Below, piece by piece: positions 5,433 through 63,837 of a stretch of 64,000 nucleotides of DNA. A model generated the notes under the pieces. It did no database searches. It was not told the DNA's origin and saw only the letters and a program-made list of their open reading frames with translations. The stretch is taken from NCBI GenBank assembly GCA_031213475.1, contig JARUPZ010000020.1, forward strand, positions 4,947,858-5,011,857, in the 5' to 3' direction. The DNA comes from Nereocystis luetkeana (taxonomy: Eukaryota; Sar; Phaeophyceae; Laminariales; Laminariaceae). Made by a program: the position numbers and the translations under genes. Position 1 is the stretch's first letter, and each line of letters starts with the position of its first letter.

Positions 5433-5564
5433 ATAGAAAACAACAGAGAACACATAACAACTACCAGGTATTAAGATTAATATAAATAATTAATAACTGA
5501 AACTGGAGCAAATCGCATACTCGCACACCCTACGTAAAGAAGAAAAAGTGAAACCGGCGTACGC

Positions 5565-5975
5565 ATGCGTGTGTGTGCGTTCTTGCTACCCGCCGACATC
5601 CAGCACAACCAGTGTCCGTGCCGATTCTTCAATCCTAAAAGAGATACGTATAATACAAGTTATGTGGTCACAAGGCTAGGCCACAGGGATACTACGTTTC
5701 CACGTATGATACCAGGTATACACTAAGCCCAGCAGTTGGCAATGCAATGCCATCATACTGGGTACGGCAGGCCCCACATACATACACATTATATGGAACA
5801 GAGAAACGAAAGAAAACAAAGAAAAAACAAAAACAAAAACAAGGAAGACAAATCGAAAGGGAAAAGGAAAAAAAGAAAAAGTAAAAGAAACAAACTGTCG
5901 TGCCGTCCCGCAGGGGACGTGGCAAAGACACTTATAACGAGCTGAAAAAAATATAAGACGAAAAAAAAAAAGTTC
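5565..5975 (-). mobile_element. LINE-A copy 2: 3' UTR only
   Basis: Reverse-orientation match to 4270-4662: the GTGTGTG end, CTACCCGCCGACATCCAGCA, ATTCTTCAATCCTA, then the purine-rich UTR and the CGCAGGGGACGTGGC block. It carries TACCAGGTA at 5710-5718, where the copies at 9489 and 7641 lack it. Confidence 0.8.
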
Positions 5976-6179
5976 CTGCATTGCGACCGGTTTGGGCTAT
6001 TCGCCATCGGGGCGCGGCCATATTCGGAAGCATTTTCGGAATTAATCCGAATAAGTTCCGAATTGTCTATAAAGTCAGGTTGGCAAAGCATTGCCACCCA
6101 CTCAGCACGTACACGTGCTAGCGCGCCCTAGAGAGCACGCGACGGCACCCCATGCATCCCAAAGTAATGTGTAGTGAGG

Positions 6180-6935
6180 ACACCCCCCGAGGTACGCGCG
6201 CAAAAATGAACTCAAATCGGCCACGAGCAGCGCTCGCACGAAGCATCTAAAAAAAGGGGGGGGGGGTTTGGGCTCCGAAAAGAGTTCAAAGGGTACGAGT
6301 AACAATTCTGCAAGACGAATCTCGTTTCGACGGGTTTTAGCTCAACTCCAACTCCTCGGACACGGGACGAAGAAGGCCTGCTGCACGACGTAGGGAGAGC
6401 GCGCGACAGCGCCGCACGCGCACCAAAGTGTAGCCTGTGTGCACACCGTGCTGCTGGCGCAAAGACGGGCTTAATCGGCGGCGAGCAGCGCACACACGGC
6501 GCTTGTAAAACAGTGTATATTTTTTCTAGGCACGCAAAAGTGTCGAGATTCTGCAAGATGAACGTCGTCGTTTGGACGGGTCTTTGAGCTAAAGTCCAAC
6601 TCCTCGTACACGCGACGGAGAAGAACTGCGGCACGAAGTAGGGAGAAGGCGCGACAGGGGGGAACGCATACCAACGTGTAGGGTGTGTACAGTCCGTGCC
6701 GTTCGCGCAAAGACGGGCTTGATCGGCCGCGAGCAGCGCTCACACGAAGCTTGTAAAAAAGGGTATGTTTTTTTTTTGTCGACACCGAAAATTGTAGCAA
6801 ACGGTGGATTCATCCTGCAAGATGAAGGTCGTTTCGACGTGTTTGAGCTCAACTCCAACTCCTCGGACATGGGACGGGGAAGACCTGCTGCACGACGTAG
6901 GGAGAGAGCGCGACAGCGCCGCACGCACACCAAAG
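6180..6935. repeat. Satellite-like tandem repeat, period about 250 bp, about 3 units
   Basis: Three diverged units share CTGCAAGATGAA, CAACTCCAACTCCTCG, ACGTAGGGAGAG, GCGCAAAGACGGGCTT and CGAGCAGCGCTCACAC. They start near 6180 (partial), 6310, 6549 and 6809. The last unit stops at the boundary with LINE-A copy 3. Long open frames across it are a product of the repeat, not a gene. Confidence 0.8.
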
Positions 6936-6936
6936 C

Positions 6937-8478
6937 ACAAATAACCAAGGGAAAATAACAGGCAAACCAAAACACAAAGAACCCTCCAGGTGGCAGCAGC
7001 AGTTTGGGGTTCGAGTAGCATAGCCAGGTTCTCCCTGCTAGTCCTCCTGGTTGGTATCTTGCTACCCTGACTCTCGGTTCCGCGTCCTGCGTTCGTCAAC
7101 TATGCCCAGCCCCTTGGCGTCAGACAATACGAAACAAGCAAGCAGGCTCGTCATCCATCCACGCCACACGACTCCTTCAATAAATAAGGCTTATCAATCG
7201 AAAAGGAGAAATAAATACTAATAAAGTGAAAATCACAGAGGATCACAGCGCAAGAAAGAAAAAAACAAAACAAAAAGAAGAGAAGACAAAGGAACACCAC
7301 GTTCGAACCAGCTACACCAGTTGGCGGCACGAGTAGCATAGCCATGCACTACTTCCTAGTCGGTCTGGTGCCTTGCTACCCTGTCTGCCATCTCCTTCCT
7401 ACTTTCTTTCGTCCACCGCAGTTTCCCCCTTCTACTCCTCCTGTCCCCCCCCCTCCCCGCATTCCCTTGGTCGGGCTTTCTGCCACTCCTCCTGTTCCCC
7501 CCCCCCCTCATCCCCTTGGACAACACCCACGGCGGATGCGCGGCGCTGCCTACTCAGCTCAGCCTCAGCCTCGTGCCACCTCACTATGAACCGTTCGGCT
7601 GCTTCAAGGATCCCCCGGTACCACTTCCCCGCCTTTTTTGCTGCTGCTGTGTCTTTTGTTATTTCTTCTTTTTTCCAGCTCGTTCTTTTTCAAGTGTAGG
7701 CCACCTCGCCTGCGGGGGGGGGGGCACGACAGATTGTTTCTCTTAGATTTTGCTTTCATTTTTCTTCTTTTTCTTTTTCGACTTGTCTACCTTGTTTTGT
7801 TTTCTCTTTGATTGTTTCTTTTCGTTTCACTATTTCATAGATTACGTATGTCGTGCCTGTCGTATCTAGTATGATGACATGGCTTTGCATTGCCCACTGC
7901 AGTTCACACTGCACACGTGGCAACGTAGTATCTCTGTGGCGTAGCTTTGTGACCACAGAACTTGTATCTCTTCTAGGATGGAAGAATCGGCACGGACACT
8001 GGTTGTGCTGGATGTCGACGGGTAGAAAGAACGGTTTAATGTGAAGAACACACACACACACAGCGCGATCTCAACTCCAAACACCAAGGGGGCAAGTTCC
8101 GTTGACTCTTCGATGGCTCGGAACTCCCGATTAGGTCTTCGACTATGCATCTATGCCAAGTCTCAAACTGTCCGCCTGGTCCCGGGTCCTCCCCACCAGC
8201 CATCGTCCAGAACATTACCCGACTGGGTAATCGCTCCTTTTGCTGTGCCGTGCCACGCCCCCCGTAAAGAAGAGCCGCCGTTTACGGGTGGTCGTTTCGA
8301 TGCTCTCACAACGTATCATCTTGAGGGCCTTCGCGTACAAGAGGGTGGCATGGTCAGTACGAAGTCGGCGCTGGAAGCCAATGACTCGAAACAGGACTTA
8401 CTTGGTGGTGAGTCGTTCGAAGCTCAGTGACACACCCGTACAGCAGGGTCTCAGTCACTTCGGCCTTCAGCAATCGGA
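6937..8478 (-). mobile_element. LINE-A copy 3, interrupted by a second LINE-A insertion
   Basis: On the minus strand it matches LINE-A from the middle of the 3' UTR (6937) into the ORF C-terminal half (8478, matching about 3017 of copy 1). It is interrupted at 7641-8062 by a plus-strand LINE-A 3' end. Removing that insert joins CCTTTTTTGCTGC to CAGCGCGATCTCAAC, as seen intact at 15912-15950. The ORF portion is disrupted by several frameshifts. Confidence 0.85.
7641..8062 (+). mobile_element. LINE-A copy 4: 3' end nested inside copy 3
   Basis: A 5'-truncated 420-bp LINE-A 3' UTR on the plus strand, very close to 4250-4662 and ending in GAAGAACACACACACACAC. It lies within copy 3 in opposite orientation, so it is younger. 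A short truncated insert with a microsatellite tail is typical of target-primed LINE insertion. Confidence 0.85.
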
Positions 8479-9488
8479 CTTTTATGCATGTCTAAATACC
8501 AGGTGCGTGCTTTTACGTATGACAGTACAGAGTTGATACGGCAATACAGAAGAAATTCAACTGAGGGAGGACAGACGCATACGGAGAGAAAAAACAGACA
8601 GTGTACGTATGACCTCTCTGATTGCTTATAATAATTTGGCGAAAATCACTTCCGATGCCAGCCTGGCCAATAGCAGGGTTCCTGGGGTGTGTTTTGTACT
8701 TGTTTTCAGCATGTGAACGACTTTGGCCGAAAAGTGGCCAGGTGTTATACCTAATTTTGGCTAAAACCCATATTATTAAGAAAACGTCATTTTTTCGAAG
8801 CAAGATTCGCATTCCAGCGAGCTTGTGCCCCGCCATTTAGAAACCAGAAAACGTTTTTTTGGCGAAAAAGTCTCTAGCGTAGAACGCGCCGTCTACTGCG
8901 TGTGCGTATCATACGAGCGCCGGACGTTCACATCACCTCCTTTCGTGTGCTGGTAGCCAGATTGTGCGCACATATATATGCTCGGGCGGTTGACCATGAC
9001 ATGATGCAACCCCCCCTCAACCATATCACTAGTGCACCCGAGAGACAGCCAGATAATTCAGACTGGGTATGGTATGCTGCCAGTACATACACTGGTTATC
9101 GGGCACGTTTGCCACGCCCGACAGGCGGGCTTACATAGCGCACGACAAACAGACTCGCGTAGAGAATAGGACCGCCAATAAGAAGTAAGTGTCCAATAAG
9201 CCAATACAAACATAATGCTCACTTTTTGGAGAACGCTTAAGAAAATTGGGTCACCTATGCTCACGGTTGTTCGAAGATGGCGCCCCAACAAGAATCTCAG
9301 GCTTGCCCAGATTAGGTGTTTTTGTTGGCGGGCCCATGCTGTATGCGGGCGAGAGCATCGAGCAGGCGTGCGATTATGAGCGGCAACATGCTCGCGGATG
9401 AGGGCAAAATCAAGGATTTTTGGTGGGATAGGCTGCGCCACCAGCTCTAGAATGTTATCCTCCGTCTCATTTACCTCCCGGGGGATGT
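8479..9488. other. No gene or known repeat recognised
   Basis: About 1 kb of apparently unique sequence. A near-match TACCAGGTG lies at 8495. Open frames here are under 130 codons with no domain. It has moderate AT content and no long homopolymer. Confidence 0.4.
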
Positions 9489-14812: not shown

Positions 14813-16008
14813 TTTATGTGTTCTTCACATTAAACCATTATTTCTACCCGCCGACATCCAGCACAAGCGGTGGCCGTGCCGGTTCTTCAATCCTATTAAT
14901 AGAACTTACAAGTTCCGTGGTCACAAAACTACGCCCCAGAGGTACTACGTTGCCACGTACCAGGTATGAAGTAAGCCCAGTAAACAACGCAACGCCATGT
15001 CATCATACGGATACGACAGACACGGCATGAATATTCGATGAGTAAGAGAAACGAAAGAAAACAAAGCAACACAAAAACAAAGAAGAGAACTCAAAAGAAG
15101 AAAAAAAAAAAATAGAAGAAACAAACTGTCGTGCCCTCCCGCAGGGGATGTGGCAGACATTTAAAAAGAACGAGCTGGAAAAAAAGGCAGAGGAAAAAAA
15201 ATCACCACTACGAACTTAAGACTTGTAAACAGAGTAAGACTAAGAACCAAGGGAAAATAACAGGTAAACCAAAGCACAAAGCACCCTCCAGGTAGCGGCA
15301 GCAGTTTGTGGTAAGAGTAGCGTAGCCAGGTTATTCCCGCTATTAATAGTCCGCCTGGTACCTTGCTACCCTGTCTGCCGTCTCCGTCTTGCTTTCGTTA
15401 ACTATTCCCGCCCCTCGGTGTCAGATAATACGAAACAAGCAATGCAGGCTCGTCATCCACCCTCGCCAGACGACGACTCCTTTCATACGGCGTATTAACA
15501 GAAGAAGGGAAGAGAAGGAAATAAAATGAAAACTCACAGAGGATAAGCGCGAGAAAAAAAAGACAAACATACAAAGAAAGACACCGTTCGAACCAGCTGC
15601 ACCAGTTGGCGGCACGAATAGGCATGTCCTACTTCCTAGTCGGCCTGGTGCCTTGCTACCCTGTCTGCCATCTCCTGTCTACTTTCGTCCACCGCAGTTT
15701 CCGTTATACTCTTCCTGTTCCCCCCCCTCCCGGCATTCCCTTAGTCGGGCTTTCGGCCACTCCTCCTGTTGCCCCCCATTTTCCCTCCCATTCCCTTGGA
15801 CACCACCCACGGCAGATGCGCGGCGCTACCAACTTAGCTCAGCCTCATCCTCGTGCCACCTCACCATGAACCGGTTGGCTGCTTCGAGGATCCCCCGGTA
15901 ACACTTCCCGGCCTTTTTTGCTGCAGTGGATCAGAGCGCGGTCTCAACGCCAGACACCAAGGGGGCAAGTTCCGTTGACCCTTCTGTGGCTTGGAACTCC
16001 CCAAGGTC
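14812..16008 (-). mobile_element. LINE-A copy 6
   Basis: Reverse-orientation LINE-A from its 3' terminus (14812) through the UTR into the ORF C-terminus. The CACCTCACCATGAACCGGTT block near 15860 matches 3500-3520. The 3' end tail is mutated (TGTGTTCTTCACATTAAACC). TACCAGGTA is present at 14958-14966, where copy 5 has plain TA. Confidence 0.85.
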
Positions 16009-22849: not shown

Positions 22850-23525
22850 AGCTATCCAAAGCCGCAAAAGTGTGCAGATCCGGGGGAAAAAATGCTATTA
22901 GCACGGCTGGAATTTACGTATGTTTCGTCGGAAAGTGCATCACCCGAGGGACTTGCATGTTTTGGCAAATCTGAAAAAAATAATCCGATTAGGACAAGTA
23001 GAATTCACGTATGTTTCGTCAAAAAAATCACCACTCACGAGACCTGCGCATTTTGGCAAATCCAAAAAGAAGTGCTATGAAGACGACTGGAATTTACGTA
23101 TGTTTCGTCGAAAAATTCATCACTAAAGGGACCTGCGTATGTTGGCAAATCTGAAAAAAGTGCGATTACGATGAGTAGAATTTACGTATGTTTCGTCAAA
23201 AAATCATCACTCACGGGGCCTGCCAATTTGGCAAACCCCAAAAAAAATGCGATTACGACGAGTAGAATTTACGTATTACCTGGTATATGTTTCGTCGCAA
23301 ACTTCATCACTCACGGAACCTGAGCCTTTTGGCCAATCCGAAAACAAAATGCGATTACGACGAGTAGAATTTACGTATGTTTTGTCGAAAAGTACATCAC
23401 CCGGGGGACTTGCGTGTTTTGGCAAATTAAATCTGAAAAAAAAAATGCGATTACGACGAGTAGAATTTACGTATGTATGTGTCGTCCAAAACTTCATCAC
23501 TAACGGGACCTGTGTCCAACAGTAC
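22850..23525. repeat. 84- to 90-bp minisatellite, about 8 units
   Basis: The unit reads GCGATTACGACGAGTAGAAT, TTACGTATGTTTCGTC, then a variable AAAATTCATCACTCACGGGA block and CCTGCGTGTTTTGGCAAATC. Array identity is high. One unit (about 23271-23290) has TACCTGGTA inserted in ACGTATGTTTCG. The array lies in the gag-side part of the LTR fossil. Confidence 0.88.
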
Positions 23526-27183: not shown

Positions 27184-27321
27184 TCTACTTAAACGGACTA
27201 GAGGGCAGTACTTGTGTCTACTAGACGAATCCTATAGCATACCTGGTACTGCGCTATATCTCGACACATACATGTTGTGTGCGCACATACATGCACGTGC
27301 AATCTCGCTGTGTTGCTGCAA

Positions 27322-34439: not shown

Positions 34440-35480
34440 AACCGCTTGGTTGCTCATGATCAGGGGCAACTCCAATCAACCCTGTGGTTGCCTCCGATCA
34501 CGTTGAAGATATTTCCTCGGGGACCAAAACAGTCTGAGTGGCGTTTGATTCTACTGACTACACCCACGTTCACCCGGGGCAAACAAACACCACATTTCCG
34601 TGTGTGATCTGATCATCGCATGCTTGCTCTTTGCTATATCAACCCTGTGCTTGCTTGTGATCAAGCTGGAGGCGGTCGCTAGTGATCACACCCATGTTTA
34701 CCCGTGGTCAAATAAACGCCATGATCCCGTGTGACCATGGCACGCCGGTTCTTTGCAATCGAGTCCAGAGTTGCTGGTGATCAACGTGGAGGAGTTCGCT
34801 AGTAGTCACAGCCACGTTTTGCCGTGGTCTAGTCAACTCCACGCTTGCTCGTGATCAAGCTTTAGGCGTTCAAGTAGTGAGCGCACCTATGTTTTTCCGT
34901 GGTCAAAATCAATCCGTGATCCCGTGTGATGGTCGCACGCATGCGATTTTCTATCAACTCCATGCTTGCTTGTGATCAAGCTGGAGGTGGTCACCGAATC
35001 AACGCTGTGTGGCCGTACATTTAAGGCTTGCCTGCTCTTTGCTATCAACCCCACGTTTGCTTGTGATCAAGCTGGAGGCGTTTCATGGTCACGACACCCA
35101 TGTTTACCCGTGGTCAAACAAACGCCATGATTCCGTGTGACCATGGTACGCCGGTTCTTACAATCAAATTCAGCGTTATATGTGATCAACCCGGAGGTAT
35201 TCGCTACTGTAGTAGTCACACCCATGTTGCGCCGTGGTCCAATCGACTCCACGTTTGCTTGTGATCAGGCTAGAGGCGTTTAAGTACTGACCGCAACTAT
35301 GTTCTTCGGCGGTCAAAAAAAGAAATCAATCCGTGATCCCCTGTGATATCGCACGCCTGCGATTCGCCATCAACTCCGTGCTTGCTTAGTGCTTGCTTGA
35401 GTACAAGCTGGAGGCGTTCGCCAGTGATCACACCCTGATTTGCCCGTGGTCGAATAAATGGTACGTTCCCGTACATTTAT
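34440..35480. repeat. Higher-order minisatellite rich in TGATCA
   Basis: Degenerate monomers of about 100 bp built on CTTGCTTGTGATCAAGCTGG, AGGCGTTCGCTAGTGATCAC and CCCATGTTTACCCGTGGTCA. Sets of about four monomers recur with a period near 410 bp: CTTTGCTAT..CAACCC at 34628 and 35038 starts matching blocks, both with GTGTGACCATGG..ACGCCGGTTCTT. This looks like satellite-type evolution (homogenised higher-order units). Confidence 0.85.
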
Positions 35481-37150: not shown

Positions 37151-37168
37151 CATGTACCTGGTACTCGT

Positions 37169-41700: not shown

Positions 41701-44700
41701 TTTGGGGGGAAAAAAGTTTATGAGCCACCACGTGTCGACACTTGAAGGAGCCATCCCACAGTATGGGTGCACCAGACGTTCCTGAGCCCCCCTCGCTTTA
41801 GGAGCTCGACATCTCACCCGACACAATACTTCGAAGAATTCGTTCGTGCCACCCGACCGGCACTTGTATGCGCTAGTCCTAAAACGGATATACGAGTAAA
41901 ATTTTCATCCTTACTGCTAGTTAGTTCCTCACTTGACGAACTCCATTCGTCAAAAACCGTTGGGCCAAAAAGTGCAGCCCCTGCCGTGGGGTGACTCGAA
42001 GGAGGTACAGCAATACCGCAGATAGTGGGGATATATGTATCTAAGTATTGGAGGTGCGCACCCCACACTTAAGAGGCGTTCTGCGATAGAGGTTCACCCT
42101 AATTTTTCTGAGGCTCCTTCCTCCCTTAAGGAGCTCCATACCTCACCCGAAAACTGACTTCTTCCGAAAAAAAAAATCAAATTGCTTCCCGATGAATAGC
42201 CCCATGGCCCAAGTATACGCGAACGTCCTTTTTTCGAAACAAGATTATTGTCATTCCGACGATTTTGGGTTAAGGAACCCCGTCAATACAGAAAATATTG
42301 TAGCGGAATTGGGCTACCTCTATCGTAGAACGCGTCACATCCCAAGCATCAGTCGTATTCGTACGTTTGTCCCCGTTTAACTCCGCGTTATACCTTGGGG
42401 GGGTACACAGTAGTAGGAGCCTCAGAACAGTGCGGGTGAGCCATAATAACGCCTCTGTAACAGTCAACCAAAAAACTAGTCGGCGACGTTTATTCAACCA
42501 AACTCACAGACAGCCCCAAAGGCAAGGCACGCCTCGAGGAAGGTCGAGAGCCAAAGGGAAAATCCATGAAATCCATGGCACGTTCTATAATCAAGCCAAC
42601 CGAAAAAAACAAAAAAACACCTCAGCCCAGGGCAAGCCACCTCAAAACGCCACAAGCCAAGTCACGACAAGCCGAATTCAAGCCCGACTCAAAGGTGGCT
42701 AGAGCCCTCAGGTCGCAAGCGCCTGTTGTCAAGACAGGCTGGGCGACGAGGCCGTCATCGCGCATCGTGTGTGGGGGTCTGACTGTCAGACCTTAGTTTC
42801 GCAACCCGCTCCTTCCACTCCCTTGCAGGACGTCAGGATTTGCTGCCCGTCCGAGGCAACGTCCAGACACAGCTGGGTGGTTTTCACGAGATGGAGGCGG
42901 CACCGACGGGGGGAAGGGGGAAAAGGGGGGGGAGATAGGGGGGCGCGCCGTGTCATGGACAATGTTTACTGTTGACCCCTTTCTCGTCATCGCCGCAAAC
43001 GCGTGCCAATTTATTTCTCAAGCAAGTTAGGGCCGCTGCTTGTCGAAAAACGTTTTGTCCAAAATAATCCCGACTTCCCTGGTGTTTTCTGTCTTTCCTT
43101 GTTCCATTTGTTTTTGAAGCGATTCTGTTTTTTTATTTCCCTCTCCGTTCAACTTCCTGATTTCAGGATTTGGTTTCCCCTCTTTGTTCCTGTTTTCTCC
43201 TGGTGTCTTTTCACAAGAAAAAGGGGGGGGGGGCAGATCGATAGTAACCCTTTCAGAACTGCAGTCCCGTTTTAGGGACAAATTACTCAGAAATTGACTG
43301 GTTTGTCCCCAAAACGGAACTGCAGTCCTAGAAGCCTCACTGTAGTGTCCGAAACATGGGGTGGGTGCAGTGCTGAAGAGGTTGGATCACCTTTGTTGAA
43401 CGTAGGCCTGTGACTTGGCTGACGAAAAAAACGCCGCCGACTAGTCAGTAGTTGGCTACGATCTACGACGAACTGTATTGCGGCAGTGATCAGGACCCAT
43501 CATATCCACAAAAAAGAGCTATACTGTACATTCCAGTATTTTGACTGTCAATAAGCACATTCGTTCCTGATTACTATGTTTCTCTCGTGATAGGCATTGC
43601 AGGCTAGTCGGCGTGCTGGGATTTGGGGTGCTTCGGCGTCTCTGCGTCTGACTGGGCGCATTTATCGCTCGAAAAAGGTGCCCTTGCTATTTGATGTAGA
43701 CTTGCAGCCAGGTAGTTGCCGTATTACGCCACCCGACGACAGCACCACTAATACGGGGGTCCATATTACATAGGACCTACGGTACACACGAAAGCTATCT
43801 AGTTCGCTTTTTTTTTTAACACAATATTTGGTTCCTATTTACTATGACCCCCGCAATAAGTAGCCGTGACGTCCATTCGAGACATGCCTTACTCACGGAC
43901 CAAGCACAAGGCGTGCCTTTTTTTGTGCAGTCAAACCTGAACGAAAAAAAACACGTGAAGGTGGCTCGGCGTCGCGGGATCACGGGGACAACAGGGAGCT
44001 TCGGCAAGCATTCGACTCGCCGTTCGACGACTATTATTCGTTATGTCCTCCTTGCCGTCCGTAATAGTGTGAAACATGAGGTTCAGGGGGTTTTTTTGTT
44101 ATCACTCACGAACATTCCCCGAAAAAAAAAAAAACGAAGGTAAGCCAAAAATAAAATAAAAAACAGAAGAAAACCTATCTATACACAGAGTTTAATCGTA
44201 ACTCCCTTCCCTACAGTACCTACTATTGCGGGGGGCCATAGTAAATGGGATCAAATATTGTCAGTAAAAATAGGTACATACATACACGAAGTATAGGTTT
44301 TTGCGTTGACCGTAGGTTCTATTTACTGTGGTCCCCCGTAATACAGGCCTAACCTCAACCCTGGACTACGTTTTGTCGCAGGGTCATCACCGAAAGGGAA
44401 CGAGAAACGCAGCGAGCGTGAACGCTCCGCGGTCGTCTTCGACGGGTTCAGCCTCGCCTGGACCATGAAAGGACTGTCTCCATCTCAGGTTTCCCTCCTA
44501 ACCAGGGTCCGTTGTTCCACTCTCGGAGCGGCGCAGGTGTGCTGTTCGCATTAGAGCAGCAGGGTTACATTCTTCAAACACACATGCCCCCGATGAAACT
44601 TACGACCGCGGGGCTCGGCTGGTAGGCCTCGCCACGACCCCTGACCCCCTGTGCATGACTAGGTGTTCACAAAGTACAGTACCATATACACCATAATTTC

Positions 44701-47700
44701 CCGTATCCCTGTTACGGGCGACCATAGTTAATAGGACCAAATATTGTTAGTAAGAATGGTTAAATATATAAGTTTTTATGTATACCATAGGTCCTATTAA
44801 CTATGGTCCCCCGTAATAGTCCTGCCCTGTTTCAAGCCTCCGAGGGCAAAGCCGTATATCGACACGAGGCGTGCTATGCAGGTGATTCCAAAAGACACCC
44901 GCGAGTGCTCTCGTTCGAGTTTTCTTTTTGGCTCGTGGTGGCGGCGGCGGTGACGGTGGTGGCAGTTCCCACCCCCACTCCCCATAATCCAAACATCCAC
45001 CCACCCACCCACCCACCCACCCACCCATCCCCCAACTCCCAACTCCCCCTCGTCCCCACCCACCCACTAACCCACCCACACCCCACACGCCTACTCACTC
45101 CCCCCCCCCCCCCCCCCCCCTCCTCCAATATTGTTGTTTGTTGTTGTTCTCACATTAACTCACAATTCAATGCAGTCCGTGGTCGCAGGACAGGCTCCAA
45201 TAACTCTGGAGTGGAAGAAATACCTCAAGTAAAAACAGAGGCAAAAACAAAAAACAAGCGTACGCACTCCACCACTGCGGACACCAGGGAAGCAAAAAGG
45301 GGACTAATAATAATAGCAGACAAAAACCTAAAAAAGAAGATGAAGCTAAGCAAAAAAAACAAAACAAAACAAAAACAGAAGCAGATAGCAAAACGCAAAA
45401 AAAAGGCAATATAAAGTATTGGGTGCCAAACGGTGGAGGTGTCTCTAATAGGGGTAGGAACGGTGCTCCGTCTCGAAAGGGATGCGTGGTCAATAATAAA
45501 ATGACGAAGGCAAGCAAAAAATGAGTACCCCCCCCCCTGTTCCTCCCCGTGCCCCACCCATCCACCCACCCACTCACCTCTCCGCCCACCTTTCCACCCA
45601 ACCTCCCGCCCTAAGAAGCACAGTGGTATTACGGGGGACCTTAGCAAATAGGACCCAATATTGATAATAAAAATAGGTAAATACATACCTGGTAGGTGTT
45701 TGTGTGTACCTATTTACTATGGTCCCCCGTAATAGTTGTACAGTATTAAGAGCAGAACTGGGAATGCACCCACTCAAGACAAACAGAGATACGAGAAAGT
45801 TGAAATGGCAACATAAAGTAAGAAACATGCCAAAAAAGAAGTTGCCAGCCATACCTGATGGGACTGCATGGGAGAAAGTAACAAAAGGGCGAGCTGGAAT
45901 AAGGTGGGATAGCGTAGTTGAGAAAGTTTGGAAGGATATAGGGGGGAACCAGGGAGAGGCGGTGTCCGCCGGGAAGTTTGGGAGGTACAGGGCAGAAGTA
46001 GAAGAAAGGATAGAAAATAGGAGAAGGGCTAGCGCTAAGAAACGAGGTGGAATCGGAAAACACACATGGAGATATACGGGGGGTAAAAAGAAGGAAAAGG
46101 AATGAAAACGTATTTGCACGGCCCAATGGACTTCGCGAAAACGCTGAAACTGCGCTTCCGTGTAGGTGACCTAAACCTGCCAGAAAGAAGAAAGAGGTAT
46201 AGCCAGTAGCCGGGAGGAGGAGGAGGAAGCAGATGCGCAGATGTGCCCGTGTGGCAAAGCAATAGAGTAGAACTCACATAGTATTACGGGGGACCATAGT
46301 ATATAGGACAAAATATTGTTAGTAAAAAAAGGGCAATGTAGATGTTTTTGTGTGTACCGCAGGTCCTATTTACGATGGTTCCCCGTAATAGGAGAATGTG
46401 AAATGTACAAGGAGGAACGGGATGTGTTAGAAATGAAGATGAGGGAAATAGACGAATGTGACATGGAGGAGTTCGGTACACTAGATGGCAGCGAGGAAGC
46501 GGTCGCTATCCTAGGAGATAGATGGTGGCCACGGGCGGCCAAACAGGAAGGGGATACGATCAGGCAAAATTTTCTATGTGATATATGGAAACAACTTAAT
46601 GAGCGCCCAATTGTTGGAGGTGTCTCTATTAGGAGCAGGAACGGTGCTCCGTCTCAAAAGGGATGCGAGATCGATGGCCAAATGACTACGGCAAGAAACA
46701 AATGAGTACGCTTCCCCCCCCCCCCGCCCCCTCACCCCCCCCCCTCCCCCTCCCCCACAAGTTTTTCGTAGTAGGATGCAGCTCCCCCTTCAGGCGACTC
46801 GCCGAAAACCTCACGGCGCTTCGCGCTTGGTGCAAGCATATGTCTGCCTCGTCGATGAAAACCCGGTGTATTCCGAACCGACATTGCAGGGATGCGATGG
46901 GTCTATGGTCATACGACGACGGCCATGCATGATAATGAGTGCACCCCTCCACCCACCTACCCCCATCCCCTTCCTCACTCACTCCCCTCTCTCCTTCCCA
47001 ACTCCCATTGACCCACCTACCCGCCCCCCCCTACTCACCGGAAAAAACGTGTATCCTTCGATAGTCAGCGACGGTCGTAGCCGCCCCGCTTCCCTCACAT
47101 CCCACACCCGCAGCCTCAAGTCCTCCCCTCCCTGCGCTACCGGGGCCAGCGGGCCCTCCTTGAGGTGCTTGAGGCATGTCACCAGGTTGCGAGGCACACT
47201 GGAAGATGCGATGCACACCCCCGTCTCCGTGTCCCATGTTCTCACGCTGGTGTCGCGAGATCCGGAGCAGAGTGTGCTCTCATCTGGGGCAGAGCCGACC
47301 CCCGATTCGATTCGATTCGATTCGATTCGAATCGATGTGAGATAGTTGTTGCATTAGGGAGGGAGGGAGGGAGGGAGGGAGGTACAGAGGGACGGAGGGA
47401 GGGAGGGGGGGGAGGGAGGGAGGAAGGGAGGGAGGGAGGGAGAAAGGGAGGGAGGGAGGGAGGGAGGGAGGGAGGGAAGGAAGGAGGGAGGGAAGGAAGG
47501 AAGGGAGGGAGGGAGGGAGGGAGGGAGGGAGGGAGGGAGGGAGGGAGGGAGGGAGGGAGGGAGGGAGGGAGGGAGGGAGGCATAGCGGGTGAGGTTCGCC
47601 CGGAAGATAAGTGTGAAGGCGCTTCCTTTCTTTGCTGCTGCTGGTCCTGATGCTGCTTGCAACCACATGAAATACTCGGGTAGCACTGAGGGAAGCGCGA

Positions 47701-50700
47701 TTCGCCCGAACAGTGTTCAACGGGGGGGGGGGGGTGGCACCTTGCCCTTGGAAGGCGGGCAGGACCAATGGAAACGAGACGAGATGCGCTGCAGTGGGAT
47801 ATTTACGCAGTTCGAATCCATGCAATGCGAGCCAACTCAATGCGATGGTGCTTCAGTCAGCAAAACACAAGCCCAGTGAACCCCGTTCGCTGCGAAAAAT
47901 CCAAAGAGTGTTATGATTGCTGAAACAAAGCGGGCTGCCACGCACGTTTATGGATACGGGGTAAAGCAAACAACGAAAAACGTGAGAAAGAAAGAGACCA
48001 TAAACAATACCACGAATAAAGAAACAATACGAGATCAACACACGTGACAAAAATGGCGAAAGCTGTGTACAACAATGACAACCACACCACACCAACGAAA
48101 AACAACAGGGCGTATTCTATGACAAGGTTTCCCCTCGGAGGCATTCGGATGTGGGCGTAAAGCAAGGAGAATTCCAATAACGCTTTGCGCGGCTCAAAAA
48201 AGCGAAAGGCCTACCAGCCGTTCAAACAGCCCGAAACACGAAAAGCTCAACGACCAGCGAAAGGAGTAATCGGTACAAATATCTACCACCGATTGTTGTG
48301 CACTGAAGAAGGCGTGGCATACACCCTACACGCCTCCCAACCCCCCGTAAGTTACTCGTTGAAGCTGTCGTCCATGCGCCAGTCCGCCTCAAAAGCGGTT
48401 CTCAGTAGGATGCAGCTCACCCTTCATGCGACTCGCCGGACACCTCACGGCGCTTCGCGCTTGGTGCAAGCAATGCCTGCCTGGTCGGTAAAAACCCGAC
48501 ATGCTCCGTCCCGACATTGTAGGGATGCGAGGGTCCATGGCCATATGACTGCGGCCATGCATGAGATCGAGTGCATCATCTCTCCTATCGAGTACACCCC
48601 CCCCCCCCCCCTCCCCGCAAGCCACGGTCCGTCTCGAAAGATTTGCGTAGTAGTCAATGGTCAAAATGACTAAGGCAAGCAACAAATGAGTACGCCCCCC
48701 CCCCCCCCCCCCCCCCCCCCCCCGCCTCCTACCCCCCCTCAACCCCCACCTCTCTCTCCCAACCTCCACCCCTCCCCCCAATCCCCAACCCCCCCCGTGC
48801 CCACATGCCTACCTGTGCTGAGCGACAAAGCCGTGCAGGCGAGGGTGTGGCCCTCGTAAGCCCTCAGGGGGATCACGTCAGCCCTTTTCCACTGTCGAAG
48901 AGTCGTGTCCCGGGAGCAGCTGTAGAGTAGTCGACTTGCGGCGCCGTATGAGGCACGAACGACCGGCTTCGAGTGCCCGACGAAGGTTATCTGATTTCGG
49001 AGAGCGCCGGAAGCGTCCACCTTGTGGATGCGCAGGGTCTATGCGCGGAAGAAAGGAGGCGGGGGGCGGGGGGGGGGGGGGGGGGGGGGGGGAAGGGAGT
49101 TGTCTGAAGATGGTGGTGGTAGTGGTGGTGTTGGGGGTAACGGTGGTGTTGGTGTTGGTTTTGGTGGTGTTGACGGTATCTATGAAGAGGGTGCAAATGT
49201 ATGTCGATGCTGGATAAGGCACGCTGCTCGTACTTCACTCTTTCTGTATTGTTTCTCCTCAAGTGAGTTGAGAGAGAGAGAGAGAGCGCGAACTCGATGA
49301 ACGAGGATGGGCTTCGTCGGTGAGCACAACTCAGCCCAGGCGTCGACCAAAACGAACCTGGTGTGCAGATGCGAGTGTTTTCCAAAAAAAGAAAATCCCC
49401 AAAGCGCTACGCACACGTGTAGCCATATAAGATTCGCATACGGGTGTATTCTCAAACGCTGCGCGTAGCCGCACAAGAGTCGAAAACGGGTATGTACGTT
49501 CCTATACGGTGGGTGTGCTTCTCCATCTCATACCGGTATTGTTGGTGGTGGTGTTAGCGATGGTGGTGGTGGTTGTGCGGTGGTGATAGGGAGCTGTCGC
49601 TCGGTTTTTCTAAACCCTATTGGTAAGAAAACCACAGTTCCCAGAAATACATACTGGCGTTTAGGGAGACAAGAAATTTGGAGAGGCTTTCCACCTGGTG
49701 ATTGAAGTTGGTGCAGAGCGCACACGTGCCCAAAATCAAGAATCCAGCCTTGGGTCAGCAGTCCTTTTTCTTGATAGTACTACGCATGAAGTAAAAATTG
49801 AATTACAACCGCAAGGTTAACCTATTGTACGCACAGTACCGCAGTAGCTCTGGTTCAATCTTACGTTCGTTCTCGTATCGCATGGCCTTTCAAGCTTTGA
49901 CAATGTTTACCGTATCACCTTGTCTTCGCCGCACGTCACGAACTCGCCGACCTCAGCACTGGCGAGTGGAACCAAGGGTCGTCGAGGAGGGAGATAAACC
50001 ATGCGGAGGAGGCGCGGTTAGTTATAACTCTCGAGCTCAATTCGCGTACACCAGTACGAAGCTCGTTTAGGGTCATTCTTATCGGAGAGTTTTTTTTCCC
50101 CAAATTCTCGACATTTTTTTCGCGCAATTTTTCAATCTTCCATATTTTCCTGTTTTTTTTTTCCCCAAATATTAGAATGTTGGCGAACTCGATATTTTTG
50201 CTTCTGGAGAATTTCACGAATAGTGACAGAATGCCTCCGTATATTGATACATATCTCCAACTACTTCCAAGCTTTAGAAAAAATGGAAAAAACGCTCTCC
50301 GATAAGAATGAACCTTAGTAGGCGACCTTGCGGATTTTTTTGTGAACCCCAGCAACTATACTGCACTGCTGTGCAGCGTGTACTAATATCAACACTATTC
50401 ATGGGGTACTTTAGGCTGCAATGTCACTCCTGTAAAGTTCCCGTTTGTACCGCTGCAGGTTCTGATCAGCAGTTTTTTCGTACACTATTGCGGGGGGCCC
50501 TAGTAATTAGGACTAAATATTGCTGGTTAATTAAAATAGGGAAATATATACCTGGTAGGTTTTTGTGCGGTCTATGGGTCCTATTTACTATGGTCTCCCG
50601 TAATACAATACTGACCGACGACCACTGAACCATCGGTACTCTGCGTAGCGCATTCTCCATTTATGTACCGTACACAAGTACGGGACACCTACTGTACGTA

Positions 50701-56400: not shown

Positions 56401-59400
56401 CCCCTGGAACGATTTTCAACAGCTGGGTTTTGTCGACAAAGGGGGAGGGCGTACTGAATACGACGATCGATGCGTCTATGCAACCAACCTTCTCGACGAA
56501 ATATTTCCTAGAGCCACCATTTTCGCTTGTGTGTTTGTGCCCCCCCCCCCCCCCCCCCCGGGTTTTGGAGGAAACCGGGTCTGAATTTTTCGTCCCTAGG
56601 GGGTGTGTTATTCTATCACCCTATTACGGGGGGCCACATTAAATAGGACCTACGGTACACACAAAAACCTATATATTTTCCTTTTTTTTACTAACAATGC
56701 TAGGTCCTATTTACTATGGTCCCCCGTACTAGTGTGATACGGTACCTCTCTGGACGGCACTATAAGGGCGTTCGCGTATTGACATCAGTACCCAACGGTC
56801 CCTACAATATCTGCCCAGGGTGGTAGCCGACAGTGTGGTGTCAAACATGAATGTGATTGCGGAAAATAGTGACTCAAGTTGCGGGACAGTTATGCCTTCC
56901 CGGTCCGAGGAAACCTCGTTGGTCAGAAACAGTCGGGGCCATACCTGTCCTCCCCCCTTCGAGCGAACGTGGTGTGCCTCAGCCATCTGGCGGGGTACTA
57001 AGCAAAGGCCGTGTGGGGTTGCTGAGTTGTGGTGATGTGACTTGACAAACCGTCTGGACCTTTGCACGAAACCCATGAAGATGAATCAAGACGTCTGACG
57101 CATTATCTATACCCCCCCCCTCCCCCCCCACCCCTCCCTGCCTTCCTCCCTCTCCCCCTCCTCCCCCCCCCCCCCACACCCCTCCTCAAATGACCAAGGC
57201 AAGCAACAAATGAGTACCCCCCCCCCCCTATTATATATAGGTTGGGTTGGCGTCGGTTGGCAACGACGCTGTAAAACATGCCGCTCACTAAGTAAGCTAG
57301 ACAACCAGGGTACCGTTTTTTTTTGTTTCTTTCTTCGGGCGGTCGCCCACAGCTGGTCGTCGAGTTAGATCATATGTGCGAGGTAGAGAACCTTTACTCC
57401 GCACAAGGGAATTGATCGTATCACGTAGTGTTCAAGGTAAGGCACCCAAGAGGCAGTTACACAGTACTCCCGGTGCTGTCTCTGGAATTGCCTACGCCGG
57501 AAATTATTTTAACTCGTTGAAGCTGTCATCCATATGCAAGTCCGCCTCACAAGCGGTTCTTAGTAGGATGCAGCTCACCCTTCATGCGACTCGCCAGACA
57601 CCTCACGGCGCTTCGCGCTTGGTGCAAGCAATGTCTGCCTGGTCGGTGAAAACCCGACATGCTCCGTCCCGGCATTGTAGGGATGCGAGGGTCTATCTAT
57701 GGTCACACGACTACGGCCATGCATGAGATCGAGTACATCTCTCCTATCGAGTACCCCCCCCCTACCCCTCCCTGCCTCCCTCCCTCTCCCCCTCCTCCTC
57801 CTCCCCCCCCTCCTCAAATGACCAAGGCAGGCAACAAATGGGGACCCCCCCCCCCCCTCCGTACCTCCTTCCCTCCCTCCCCCTCTACCGTTTCCCCCCC
57901 CAAACCCCCACTTCTTCGTCTGCTGTCCGGTCCCACAGATCGTGGTGGATCACGGGACAGTCTCCCCTAGGTTTTCCAAAAAAATGGCGGAGGCGGTAGC
58001 AAAGGGGGGAGGATCGTTTCTCGACGCGCCAATCAGCGGGGGTCCCCAGGGGGCACAGGAAGGTACTGCATGTACTTTTGTATTCTGTTGTGTCGGCCTC
58101 CGGATTGTATTTTTTTTCTGCCTAAAATTTTGGGGACCCAGGAGCAGCCACCGATGCAATGAGGAGCGTGGTATTTTCAGATGTCTGTCATGGGGGGAAT
58201 ACCAGGTAGTCTTCTATTACGGGTGATCAGAGTAAATAAGACCTAATATTGTCAGTAAAAATGAGTGAATATATAGTTTTTTGTATGTGCCGTAGGTCCT
58301 ATTTACTGTGGTCGCCCGTCAGTAATATGCAGAACCCACAGAAATGCGGTGTGTAAACATGAGGGGTTACCTGGGTTTTGGGCTTTAACGTGAGTTCTGA
58401 TTATCATGCATGGCGTGTATACCGTGATATTTTGTGAGCTGCTCGGCGAAGCAAAGTAGCTGGTAGTTTTGTTGCTGAGCTGTGTGTGTCGTACGTACGG
58501 CTCGCTGCGTTTCGGTTGGAACACTCGGACGAAACTCAAGCGGTGCCGGGCTGCTTGCTCCGTGCGGGCGGGTGCTGTAATCGTTTTTTTTTTTCCCCTC
58601 GTTTTTTTTTCCTTCTAGGGTCGCTAAAGAGTCGCATCGACAGCTCATCTTCCCCCACATAGTGTTCTACTCTAGATACTTCAGGGCAGATAGATCATCT
58701 ATGTGTATGAGCTGTGTGATATTTATGATATGTATGATCTGTATGATACAGCTCATGTTACCGGGTAGGAGCTGTACAACCTGCACGATCTACAGTAGCA
58801 CGTGTTTTCTGGGTTGGATTTGTACTGTACAGATAGATAGGTCCTGCGCAACCTCTCACAACGGCAGGTTAGGAACTATCAATAGATTATCTATCTGTAG
58901 ATTATACATCTGATTTATCTGTACATGATATATCTGATATATCTGATATTTATGTAGATGATCTATCTGATACATCTGTGGATGACCTATCTGATATATC
59001 TGTAGATGATATATCTGACATATCTGTAGATGACATATCTGGTATATCTGTAGATGATCTATTTAATCCATTTGTAGATGATCTATCTGATCTATCTGTC
59101 GATGGTATATCTGTAGATGTTATATCTGATCTATCTGTAGATGATCTATCTCTGGAGGATCTATCTGAGGTGTGAATTCTTTGACTGCTGCAAAAATTAA
59201 CCTACACTAATCCTACTCTATTTCCAAGTAGGTTCCCGAACACTGTGGTCGCAGTTTTAACAACACAGCAGTTCCACAGCCGGCTGCGCCGTGTGTCGAT
59301 TCAACTCGGCGGTACAAGACAGCAATGATCCTGCCGTGACCTATATGACGGAAACACGAGTACGCACGCCCATGCATGGGGGTAAAACCTGCTGACCTTT

Positions 59401-60520: not shown

Positions 60521-60552
<32 letters not shown>

Positions 60553-62974
60553 GTTGACGGACAGGGGGGTGATGGGAATTGTTCGTGGTGTTGGTGGCGG
60601 TGGCGGTGGTGGTGGTGGTGATGGTGATGTTTTGTTCTGTTTTGTTTGTTTGTTTGGTTTTCCTTTGCGAAGCATGCGAGACACCTTTTGCCGTTATCCC
60701 CTCCCATACACGCCAATGAGCTGTCTGCCGCTCGCAAAGCTGCCTTTTTTGTTTTGTTTTTCGCTCATCCTCTCGTCTGGTGCCTTCCCTTGTCCGCCTT
60801 GTATCCGGTCCCTTCACCGATACTGATGCTGTGTGTGTGCTTGTGTGTGTTTCGCAGCACTTAGTGATTACAAACACGGTGGCGGCTTGCGAAGCATACG
60901 TTCTCGCGAGGAGCCTAGGACTGCGCGACACGAGCAAGCTCAAGGGCTTGCTGGCGGAATCATGGGGGCAAAGGTACTAAGGCAGTCTCGCTCTTTTTTC
61001 TTGTTTTTTGTTTTCATGTATTGTTTTGTGCGTTTTTCATCTGAAGCGCTCGTTTCTGTGTGTGTGTGTGTTTTTTGTTGTTGTTTTTTGTGCATTTTTC
61101 ATCTGAAGCGCGCGTTTGTTTGTTTCGCTATTTGTATAGTTTTGTGCGTTATTCATCTGAAGCGTGCATAATGTAGAGCGACGCCTTCGGTTTTCTCTGG
61201 TGTGGCGTACTCATGTCATGCATGGCCGTAATCGGGGAGGGGGGCTCATACGCATCTGTAGTTCCGCGTCCTTGTTGAGAGAACTGGTTTGTGGCGTATT
61301 CCGCGGTACCGACGAGAAACTGGCTGCCTTGAAGGTGGGTTGGACGTGCTTCCGTTTCCTCGTATGCCTTAGTGCCATCGTCATCAATGTCATTGTCCTC
61401 GGCATCAGCATGATCGTTATGGTAGACAAGCATCATACTTGCGCCTTGAGCCATCGGTCAGTGCTGATTGATTTTGCTCAGGGGCTATGTTGCATGCCAG
61501 GTGTCTAAACTAAAGCTCAACCCGGGGATTGACTGGCTGCTTATCTAACACGCTATCACCACCATCCTCATGACCACTGTCGTCACCAGCCAGCACCACC
61601 GGTACCGCCGCCGCCACCATCACCACCACAACCCGCAACCATCAGCCTCACACCATCGCCGGAATATCGGGTGATGCGCGTTTTTGTGCAGCGCTTGCGT
61701 TCGCCTCCCCATCCAACTATTAGCCCGCACGCAGTTGCTTTCTGCCAACTTCTTCCTATCTCGCAAAAGCATCCTGCGCGTGATCGTTAGCCGCTATCCC
61801 TGACTTCCAGCCTAGGGGAGAGGGAGGGCTCGGACAGACCATCGATGTCCACTATAGATGATCTAAACCCTTTCAAGGAAGACGATTTGTATGGTCTGTA
61901 CGATCTGTGTGATCTGTATGATCTAGCTCGTGTTGCCGAGTGGGAGCCGTATAATCTGCATGATCTACTGTAGCAGATGTTTCCTGGGTTGGATCTGTAC
62001 TGTGCAGCAGATAGATAGATCATGCACCGCCTCTCACAACGGGAGGGTCCAACTAGTTTGTCCCGAAAACGGGACTGCAGTCCTAAGAGGGTTAAGCTCG
62101 CCACGCTTCCACATTTTTCGCAGCTGTCGCTTTGCCGGTTCTCGTCCTCTACGAGCAACCCCTTGCTTGCATAACTGTTCACCTACCTTTCCTTGCGGGA
62201 ACAATGCTACTGATAACCACGCTAGGATGCTTGTTTCCAGTAGGACAAAAAAGCTAATCGACCCCCCCCCCCCCCCCTCCCCTCCCCTGCCTCGCCTCCG
62301 CGCGTTTGTTTATCGCGATCCTTCAAGTCGAACGCTGGACCATGTGGTGCTCCGCATCGTAGAAGAGCTCATTGACCTGTCTCCCCCCCTCGCCCCGCCT
62401 TCCGCTCCGCCTCCGAGGTTCCTGAAACCCCTTTCGGTCCCAAAGCCGGACCGCGTGATAGTTTTTGCGGTATTATGTCAGAAGGGTCGGTCGCCCCCCT
62501 CCTGGTCTCCTCTCTCGCGCGTTTTATGTACCACGCACGACTACAGTACTTCGAAAAAGCTGAAGCCGACTTTAGACCACTCCATAGCTTTTTTTCTGCT
62601 GTGCAAAAGTGTCAACCGAACCCCCCTCCTCCCCCCCCCGCCCAACCTCGCTCGTTTTAAAATTTGAACTTATCGATGTTTTTTTTGTTTCTCCTCCTCC
62701 CCCCCCCCCCCCCCCGCCCCCCCCCCCCCCCCCCCGCTCTCGCCCCGCCTCCGCCTGCACCTCCGCGCGTTTCGTCGATACCCTCTTTGAAAGTCGGATG
62801 CTGGACTACGTGTTGGCAGATCTTGTAAAGGTGGAGCAGGCGGGCGATGACGTCGAGGCTCTCCGGAGATCACTCGCGCCGGTACGCACGCTGGCTAAGG
62901 ACGCCCCCATCGTGACGCGAGCGGCGCACGAGGGAGGGGCGTCGGCGATGCTCCTGCAGTTTGCGCAGGCACAG
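53428..62974 (+). CDS. Beta-hydroxyacid dehydrogenase (3-hydroxyisobutyrate dehydrogenase family), 6 exons seen, 3' end outside or unrecognised
   Basis: Exons: 53428-53584, 54161-54330, 57939-58062, 60359-60492, 60858-60973 and 62794-62974, all GT-AG with phases that agree, about 294 codons. ATG 53428 is the first in frame after a TGA. N-terminal Rossmann motif GIVGLGRMGSGMA (residues 4-16), then SDVCLVCV, the DHGTVSP segment, substrate loop DAPISGGPQGAQEG (about 140) and the catalytic lysine region GSGAAAKLVNQ. A helical C-terminal domain runs through LAESWGQSRMLDYV. The family oxidises small 3-hydroxy acids with NAD(P), for example 3-hydroxyisobutyrate in valine breakdown or tartronate semialdehyde in reverse. 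The exact substrate cannot be told. Frame is open at AQAQ before donor GTGCGG; a last short exon is expected further right. A mitochondrial targeting peptide is not evident. Confidence 0.88.
53747..53854. mobile_element. MITE-A copy 8
   Basis: TATTACGGGGGCCATAG .. CTATGGTCCCCCGTAGTA. In dehydrogenase intron 1. Its core is close to that of copies 1 and 4. Confidence 0.87.
54400..54780. other. T/G-rich intron 2 segment
   Basis: Strongly TTTTG-rich on the plus strand (TTTTGTGTTTTGC-type). No repeat family recognised. Confidence 0.4.
55384..55690. mobile_element. MITE-C related composite
   Basis: Begins GAGGCGTTCTACGATAGAGG and ends with an inverted left end (GCCTCGGAAAAATTAGGGTG .. GACGCCTC). 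Between them are an A-run and GCATCAGTCGTACGT.. shared with 42345. It probably contains two MITE-C pieces in inverted orientation. Confidence 0.6.
55845..56150. mobile_element. MITE-C copy with both ends
   Basis: GGCGTTCTACGATAGAGGTC .. TTACCTCTGTCGTAGAACGC, about 300 bp, with an internal 35-bp duplication (CCGATACAGGATCGGCATTC / CCGATACAGGATTGGCATTC). In dehydrogenase intron 2. Confidence 0.75.
56622..56731. mobile_element. MITE-A copy 9 (empty-site form)
   Basis: TATTACGGGGGGCCACAT .. CTATGGTCCCCCGTACTA. Its core reads AAAAACCTATATATTTTC, the form without CCAGG. Confidence 0.87.
57187..57228 (+). mobile_element. LINE-B 3' end fragment
   Basis: CAAATGACCAAGGCAAGCAA CAAATGAGTAC then C11. 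It directly precedes the Rep-D copy. Confidence 0.65.
57228..57772 (+). mobile_element. Rep-D full-length copy in dehydrogenase intron 2
   Basis: About 540 bp from TATTATATATAGGTTGGGTT to CTCTCCTATCGAGTAC plus C9. LINE-B 3' fragments lie on both sides (57187 and 57810). No ORF. See 39195 for the reverse copy. Confidence 0.75.
57810..57855 (+). mobile_element. LINE-B 3' end fragment
   Basis: CTCAAATGACCAAGGCAGGC, AACAAATGGGGACC, then C-run, 80 bp before dehydrogenase exon 3. Confidence 0.6.
58215..58327. mobile_element. MITE-A copy 10
   Basis: TATTACGGGTGATCAGAG .. TGTGGTCGCCCGTCAGTAATA. In dehydrogenase intron 3. TACCAGGTA lies at 58200-58208, just outside it. Confidence 0.82.
58690..58868 (+). 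repeat. Intronic repeat, partner at 61880-62050
   Basis: GTATGATCTGTATGAT, AGCTGTACAACCTGCACGAT, CTGGGTTGGATTTGTACTGT and CCTCTCACAACGG recur in order in intron 5 of the same gene. Function unknown. Confidence 0.75.
58885..59170 (+). repeat. 24-bp minisatellite (ATCTGTAGATGATCT..)
   Basis: About 12 units of GATGATATATCTGATATATC-like sequence. The unit keeps a multiple of three and so gives a repeated SVDDLSDI frame, which is not a gene. In dehydrogenase intron 3. Confidence 0.88.
59757..59859. mobile_element. MITE-B copy 3
   Basis: CTTAACCCCTGTTAGAACCG .. GGACTGCGGTCCTAAAAGGG TTAG: both arms present. In dehydrogenase intron 3. A decayed left arm (CCTCTTCGGGACTGCAACCC) lies at 60135. Confidence 0.75.
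60524..60640. repeat. Poly(G) and (GGT)n tract beside exon 4
   Basis: A G29-type run starting about 30 bp after the exon 4 donor, followed by (GGTGGC)n. Mirrors the tract beside WDR31-like exon 3. Confidence 0.85.
61880..62050 (+). repeat. Intronic repeat, partner at 58690-58868
   Basis: Same block order as the partner (TGTACGATCTGTGTGATCTG, CTGGGTTGGATCTGTACTGT, CCTCTCACAACGG), then a half MITE-B copy. Confidence 0.75.
62050..62096. mobile_element. MITE-B right arm only
   Basis: AGTTTGTCCCGAAAACGGGA CTGCAGTCCTAAGAGGGTTAA; the left arm is missing. Confidence 0.7.
62264..62400 (+). pseudogene. Decayed duplicate of dehydrogenase exon 6
   Basis: A C16 run, then CCTCCGCGCGTTTGTTTATC, an AG acceptor-like site at 62329-62330 and a frame SRTLDHVVLRIVEELIDL. 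The true exon 6 has C-runs, CCTCCGCGCGTTTCGTCGAT, an AG and SRMLDYVLADLVKVE. The intron flank and exon start are both duplicated. The copy lacks the rest of the domain and runs into Pro-rich sequence, so it is probably dead, though an alternative exon cannot be excluded. Confidence 0.6.
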
Positions 62975-63200
62975 GTGCGGTGCGGTGCGGTACGGTTCGG
63001 TAGGGTACGGTACACTACGGTGCGGTGCGGTACGGTGCGGTACGTTTCGTTACGGCACGGTAAGGTACGGTTCTGTACGTTTCTGTACAACAACATGCGA
63101 GACGGCACGGTTTAGTCTTGGTACTGTAGGGCACGGTACGGCATCGTACGATACGGTAACAGTGTACCATACGCCATAGTACGTTACTTCACGGGACTGT
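62975..63200 (+). repeat. (GGTACG)n-like degenerate repeat
   Basis: TGCGGTGCGGTACGGTTCGG-type units run for about 200 bp from the donor site of exon 6 into the intron, so the donor itself (CAG|GTGCGGTGCGG) is made of the repeat. Confidence 0.85.
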
Positions 63201-63384
63201 GCGGTCGATCCGGCTCGGTATCGGGGGGTTACGCGTTGGGCGGTGGGTGATATCGTTGAACTTGCAAGTGGTACGATATAGTGACCAACGCCGTGATCCA
63301 AAAATGTCGGCGTTCACGGTCGGCGCGACAGGAAAGAAGGAAGGTCAACCGGGACAGAGAGGGGGGGGGGCGGGGGCGGGGGCG

Positions 63385-63600
63385 GGGGGGGGGTACTCAT
63401 TATCATGCAGAGTTAAGGTTCTTCCCGCACAAAAATGATCTAACTCGACCACAAGCCGTGGTGACCGGTGACCGTCCCCCCCCAAAAAAACAATAAAAAA
63501 ACGGTACCCTGCTTGTCTAGCTCACGCAGTGAGAGGCGTGTTTTACAGCATCGTCATCAACCGACACCAACCCACCAGGTATATCACGTAGGGGGGAGGG
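63385..63600 (-). mobile_element. Rep-D partial copy
   Basis: Minus-strand match to the 5' half of Rep-D (ACGGTACCCTGCTTGTCTAG, CTCACGCAGTGAG, CCGACACCAACCCACC), flanked by a G-run and TACTCATT. A near-match CACCAGGTATA replaces the CAACCTATATA of 57235. Confidence 0.65.
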
Positions 63601-63718
63601 GCTGGTGGTGGTGTTGGTGTCTGGTGCTAGCCTTGATTTTGTTGGTGTTGTTGCGTCGTGGTGGGGTAAAATGAACCTATTATCGCCCTGACATGTTTTG
63701 GTTCTGGTTATCGATTAT

Positions 63719-63837
63719 CATTACGGGGGACTACAGTAAATAGGACCTACGGTGCACACAAAAACCTACCAGGTATATATTTACTCACTTTTGCTAACCA
63801 TGTTTGATCCCATTTACTATGTTCCCCCCGTAAAATA
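63719..63837. mobile_element. MITE-A copy 11 (with TACCAGGTA)
   Basis: TTACGGGGGACTACAGTAAA .. TACTATGTTCCCCCCGTAA. TACCAGGTA at 63767-63775 splits the CCTATATATTT seen in copy 9. Confidence 0.85.

Follow-up and report, generated by a model that had tools for sequence, protein, structure and literature searches.

TACCWGGTA, a frequent TA-bounded motif in the genome of the brown alga Nereocystis luetkeana, as a probable excision footprint of a DNA transposon

In a stretch of 64,000 nucleotides from the brown alga Nereocystis luetkeana (GenBank assembly GCA_031213475.1, contig JARUPZ010000020.1, positions 4,947,858 to 5,011,857 of the forward strand; in the following "the window", with positions counted from its first letter), the 9-mer TACCWGGTA is strongly over-represented, with either A (A-form TACCAGGTA) or T (T-form TACCTGGTA) at its centre. 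Very probably, the motif is a footprint left on excision of a DNA transposon of the cut-and-paste type, which inserted at TA and duplicated it. This reading, proposed in the original prediction made from the letters of the window, is supported by the genome-wide count, by 7-bp insertions in repeats and by the target preference of the motif.

All ten exact copies predicted for the window are present at their coordinates, five as A-form and five as T-form on the plus strand. A mean of 0.34 and a maximum of two copies were found in 100 dinucleotide shuffles of the window, and an order-4 Markov model predicts 0.5 copies. Most other over-represented 9-mers of the window match, in our own reading of the counts, repeat families (MITE-A, described below, and a minisatellite), whereas the surroundings differ among the TACCWGGTA copies. 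Across the 465,085,209 bases of the assembly the 9-mer occurs 182,395 times (91,240 + 91,155), i.e., about once per 2.5 kb, and the control with reversed letters 1,744 times (861 + 883). A genome-wide count near expectation had been named beforehand as speaking against the reading; the count came out at about 105 times the control, and the predicted over-representation is thereby borne out. Seventeen random 10-kb stretches contained 72 copies (0 to 9 each, at least one in 16 of the 17), corresponding to a density of about 0.42 copies per kb. Further analyses were based on a sample of 316 kb (0.07% of the genome) composed of the window, 170 kb picked regardless of the motif, and motif-bearing stretches of the contig designated C1; this sample is partly biased towards the motif, whereas the 17 stretches are unbiased, and densities and decay figures refer to the 170 kb only. 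In the sample, TACCWGGTA is the commonest complex 9-mer, with 139 copies against 3.1 expected (order-3 model) and none in reversed letters.

In those repeats that permit testing, TACCWGGTA proves to be an insertion of 7 bp that turns TA into TA-CCWGG-TA. When repeat copies within the window are compared, nine of the short indels listed measure 7 bp, and six of the nine correspond to the motif (at 14958, 45686, 50549, and 63767). In the sample, 38 motif copies lie within repeat alignments; seven of them possess an ungapped partner shorter by 7 bp (one of the seven not being clean), compared with 6 of 309 other TA-N5-TA words. The remaining 31 of the 38 are without such a partner, such that the insertion test is positive where feasible and covers few copies. 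Insertion at TA with duplication of the TA is thus seen in repeats both of the window and outside it. The duplicated TA around a remnant agrees with footprints of the IS630/Tc1/mariner type, whereas TA plus five extra bases does not agree with piggyBac or Harbinger footprints (TTAA or a three-base target, often with precise excision).

Concerning the individual sites of the window (all on the plus strand), the A-form at 14958..14966 lies in a copy of LINE-A, a family of long interspersed nuclear elements, which reads CCACGTACCAGGTATGAAG where its relative at about 9620 reads CCACGTATGCAG; this is a clean 7-bp insertion, as had been claimed. Equally as claimed, three copies occupy the centre of MITE-A, a miniature inverted-repeat transposable element (MITE) with 11 copies in the window and TA-bounded ends (TA before TTACGGGGG and after CCCCCGTAA), and all three sit at the same central TA: the T-forms at 45686..45694 (MITE-A copy at about 45626-45735; 7-bp indel) and 50549..50557 (about 50485-50606; 7-bp-shorter partner), and the A-form at 63767..63775 (minus-strand copy at about 63718-63834; 7-bp-shorter partners). 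The motif-free MITE-A copy at 56621..56732 on the minus strand provides the empty reference site CCTATATATTT. In a further LINE-A copy, the A-form at 5710..5718 is part of a 12-bp difference from the relatives and is, by alignment by eye, not a simple insertion. For the minisatellite, the prediction holds in that one unit carries the motif (T-form at 23277..23285) and the compared neighbour units do not, but the net difference is 12 bp and not 7 bp. No 7-bp-shorter partner was found in the repeat comparisons of window and sample for the exact matches at 5462..5470 (A-form), 27240..27248 (T-form), 37155..37163 (T-form), and 58200..58208 (A-form). The latter two lie close to MITE-A ends, about 7 bp and about 5 bp beyond them, respectively, a situation that would seem unlikely to be due to chance. 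Since three of the ten window copies share one MITE site and are perhaps not all independent, the number of independent events is put at 8 to 10.

Genome-wide, 1,212 copies of MITE-A bear the motif at their centre in one exact context; by our count, the 100 of these that were listed comprise 32 A-forms and 68 T-forms, all read in the same orientation. Both centre forms are thus found at the same oriented site, whereas descent of all copies from one master would have given a single form. The same central hot spot holds another insert between TA, CACGAAG, in the MITE-A copy at 44223 (about 44284-44297).

Base preferences in the flanks of the motif are symmetric with respect to the TA. For 135 sites (the 139 less four with identical left flanks), compared with the 16,886 TA sites of the sample, the correlation of the two sides was r = 0.84, the largest of 500 random draws being 0.51. 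Many sites adjoin a second, often imperfect motif, which adds to this signal; after removal of 66 sites having a neighbour within three mismatches, and of one with an identical left flank, the remaining 72 sites without near-tandem neighbours still gave r = 0.73 (largest of 1,000 null draws 0.52). At these 72 sites, the TA tends to be preceded by Y and A and followed by T and R, and at a distance of seven bases A or T is preferred on either side. Such a palindromic, AT-rich preference around TA agrees with IS630/Tc1/mariner-type elements; the pattern resembles what a dimeric transposase would target, and it is probably similar to the target consensus of Sleeping Beauty.

Two explanations that do without a transposon can be weighed against these observations. 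A selected functional site, for protein binding or replication, would fit a motif that is very frequent and palindromic except for its centre; its insertion as 7 bp at TA in repeats, its tandem doublets, and an excess of one-mismatch relatives in the 170 kb (88, compared with 25 in the reversed control) argue against it, and we regard it as very improbable. Still more remote, to the point of being nearly negligible, is a sequencing or assembly artefact at CCWGG. In favour of an artefact, some bacteria methylate their DNA at this pentamer. Only 10 of the 138 CCWGG of the window are flanked by TA on both sides, however (the next flank classes comprise three each), a target-site preference exists, and an error of base-calling would neither add 7 bp to some repeat copies nor create a palindromic preference around them. 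Moreover, the related alga Ectocarpus is reported to be without cytosine methylation (PMC12477816).

The arrangement of the copies and their age bear on how the footprints arose. Tandem doublets are found in 9 of the 130 runs of the sample, in mixed forms (AA 3, TT 2, AT 2, TA 2), which disfavours slippage. Within the 17 stretches, 13 of 56 spacings measure 100 bp or less, compared with 2.3 expected, which is consistent with local reinsertion or with shared hot regions. If all one-mismatch copies were once exact, their excess would mean a decay of about 9% per site, and the scars accordingly seem to have been passed on by inheritance and to have built up with time. This apparent decay bears on a rival reading, in which TA-bounded elements are removed at some point of the life cycle, in a programmed or near-quantitative manner, such that the sequenced cells show scars only. 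The huge number of scars, the single dominant scar type, and the lack of a recognised donor would all suit such a removal; inherited and aged scars, on the other hand, are what ordinary excision leaves, excision at TA in ciliates is precise, and we know of no programmed removal of elements in brown algae. We therefore give it very little credence.

Besides the 5-nt remnant, which is dominant, rare longer forms exist, and these point to the sequence of the donor's ends. The 6-nt form TACCAGGGTA occurs eight times in the sample, its mirror form TACCTGGGTA not at all; the centre is free to be A or T in the 5-nt form, seemingly not in the 6-nt form. Further sites were obtained with a "trap" consisting of the MITE-A centre TAAATATATA followed by the motif without the following T, which gave 134 matches. 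Among the 100 of these that were listed, 56 read, by our count, CCAGGG and four CCTGGG; these counts include duplicated segments, and some sites may be inherited with MITE-A. Twelve of the 134 were inspected over about 100 bp and comprised five 6-nt forms, two 7-nt forms, and five that were unclear, mutated or satellite. The presence of TACCAGGGTA without TACCTGGGTA, together with the excess of CCAGGG over CCTGGG at the trap sites, suggests a donor element that would have begun with 5'-CCAGGG. As an observation of its own, a series of TAAATATATACCAGGC lies on contig C29 (about 3945205-4991969), with spacings mostly of 83-94 kb and with some pairs 38 bp apart.

As to the mechanism, a transposase may have cut out the element so as to leave 3' overhangs of four to five nucleotides that ended in the element's tips, 5'-CCAGG(G). 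Annealing of both flank ends via CC/GG, with a central A.A or T.T mismatch, and their ligation would have followed, and mismatch repair would have yielded either form, A or T. Where the cut lay one or two nucleotides deeper, TACCAGGGTA and perhaps TACCAGGGGTA could have arisen, one tip being kept whole. The excised element would have reinserted, often nearby.

The original prediction had further expected a TA-target transposon with ends of the type CC...GG; its TA-insertion part stands, whereas no such transposon was recognised in the 316-kb sample. TACCAGG without a following TA is found 52 times there and TACCTGG 84 times. Recurrent extensions of TACCWGG, in groups of 5, 5, and 2 rows, were considered as element ends; in the two larger groups the upstream sequence is conserved too (in 5 of 5 and 4 of 5 rows), which places them inside repeats and rules them out, and the third group consists of two rows only. 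A 334-bp candidate with TACCTGGTAGATG... ends (positions 1176-1509 of C1 217981-220989) was rejected, being the centre of a long, near-palindromic inverted repeat of about 930 bp (about 896-1827 of the same segment) with the motif in both arms; this repeat shows 91% identity to its own reverse complement over about 930 bp, and 98% in the central 334 bp. Among the transposases, DDE_3 gave no genome match with 30 candidates scored, and DDE_1 gave 28, of which the best was inspected; only the best candidates were scored, such that the absence of DDE_3 matches is no proof. The inspected DDE_1 locus, an open reading frame at C1:8320630-8321181 (E-value 3.4e-28), exhibits no CCAGGG ends within 5.3 kb and no convincing TA-flanked inverted ends; the frame may represent a host gene that descends from a transposase of the pogo-like type. 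Outside the 0.07% sampled, some thousands of donor copies may have gone unnoticed. Scars probably outnumber any donor copies many-fold, and we infer a donor that is now rare, lost or not recognised. We do not assign this donor to Tc1/mariner, since its scar is longer than in described members and the element itself was not seen.

Several observations weigh against an excision footprint. In the sample neither an element with ends of the CCWGG type nor a convincing pair of terminal inverted repeats was recognised, the 12 inspected trap sites contain no recognisable element (three of them, L053, L054, and L058, could not be classed), and TACCTGG without a following TA is in excess over TACCAGG. 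The dominant remnant of 5 nt is longer than the about 2-4 nt of described IS630/Tc1/mariner members, and the implied overhang exceeds the one to four nucleotides of plant mariner elements (PMC9632168) and the three of Sleeping Beauty; likewise, one uniform scar is set against the varied footprints of rice and Triticeae. The 7-nt forms lack the asymmetry of the 6-nt form (TACCAGGGGTA 2, TACCTGGGGTA 2), and the one 6-nt copy aligned within repeats has no shorter partner (0 of 1). Finally, at the MITE-A centres of the sample all four copies are T-form, and the T excess at this centre suggests that part of the copies was inherited with the MITE.

The uniformity of the insert, and the lack of a recognised donor in the 316-kb sample at a motif density of about 0.42 copies per kb in random stretches, would also be explained if the 7-bp unit were inserted directly and without a full element, either by abortive transposition of tips or as templated filler at TA breaks made by an endonuclease. 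Annealing of two identical tips would, however, be expected to produce just such an insert, symmetric and with either A or T at its centre, and the same genome retains in MITE-A an element with an apparent footprint of its own; direct insertion is therefore improbable in our view. Somewhat speculative, and unlikely on balance, is a variant of the excision reading according to which a TA-bounded lineage of brown-algal elements undergoes almost quantitative excision. A programmed or domesticated transposase may be responsible, cohesive ends of 5 nt would give one uniform scar, and the genome would retain hundreds of thousands of scars but almost no elements.

MITE-A serves as a control within the same genome. 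Its apparent scar is TATTAATA, which occurs 71 times in the sample (6.2 expected, four in reversed letters); of 19 copies lying in repeats, 9 are matched by a partner from which exactly 6 bp are missing. It appears to be a second class of scar and fits excision of MITE-A. The similarity to TACCWGGTA consists in the TA target, a remnant (here of 4 nt) between TA, and the shorter partners; the differences are the other tips, the elements still being present, and the frequent flanking of its scars by C and G. In the window, TATTAATA is found at 15341 and 25047; in the sample as a whole it often has C before or G after it. Two further words are in excess in the sample (with an occurrence in the window at 35205), TACAGTA/TACTGTA (119 vs 49 expected) and TACGAGTA (51 vs 14 expected), with a matching shorter partner in repeats for 4 of 30 and 1 of 14 copies, respectively; these may be scars of further TA-target families. 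Apart from these motifs, the window contains a gypsy polymerase with its best named match in Ectocarpus (68% identity) and a best unnamed match of 76%; the gypsy protein gave no match to viral contigs.

Among known systems, the footprint is similar to that of Sleeping Beauty, which leaves two consensus footprints, TACAGTA and TACTGTA (PMC4378557), identical to the 3-nt 3' overhangs made by its transposase (PMC7827188). Common to both are the duplicated TA, the self-complementary tips, an A/T centre with two equivalent forms, and local hopping (PMC4378557, PMC7827188). The Sleeping Beauty remnant measures 3 nt and its donor is known, whereas the remnant here measures 5 nt; about 100-200 candidate sites are described there per tumour sample, compared with 182,395 copies here. 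Plant mariner and Stowaway elements (Osmar5, Ppmar2, Triticeae Stowaway) equally leave short remnants of their tips between duplicated TA, and one TA site can be reused (PMC1925063, PMC9632168); their footprints consist of one to four varied bases, whereas one 5-nt product dominates here. Zero to four bases are left by the pogo-type element Passer (PMC9976928), and in rice only 8 of 94 excisions left the target duplication alone (PMC4423477). In Ectocarpus, the TA-target superfamily Mariner-Tc1 is abundant, with 17 families and 11,912 copies (PMC12477816); the words excision, footprint and CCAGG are absent from the main text of that paper.

Among the papers listed in literature searches of a partial library, none reports, by title or beginning of the abstract, genome-wide excision scars in brown algae, and those listed in a text search for the 9-mer look unrelated by their titles. 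Thus, this kind of footprint is known, whereas its length, uniformity, and scale appear to be new. About 180,000 past events of insertion and excision seem to be marked by one scar, around 15 times the number of Mariner-Tc1 copies in Ectocarpus, and this abundance raises the question of the donor's fate. An annotation of elements only would overlook such activity. As a rule, excision footprints escape recognition in genomes, being too short and too varied; with a uniform scar, target choice, local hopping, the fidelity of end-joining, and the mutational load due to excision would become measurable at an evolutionary scale.

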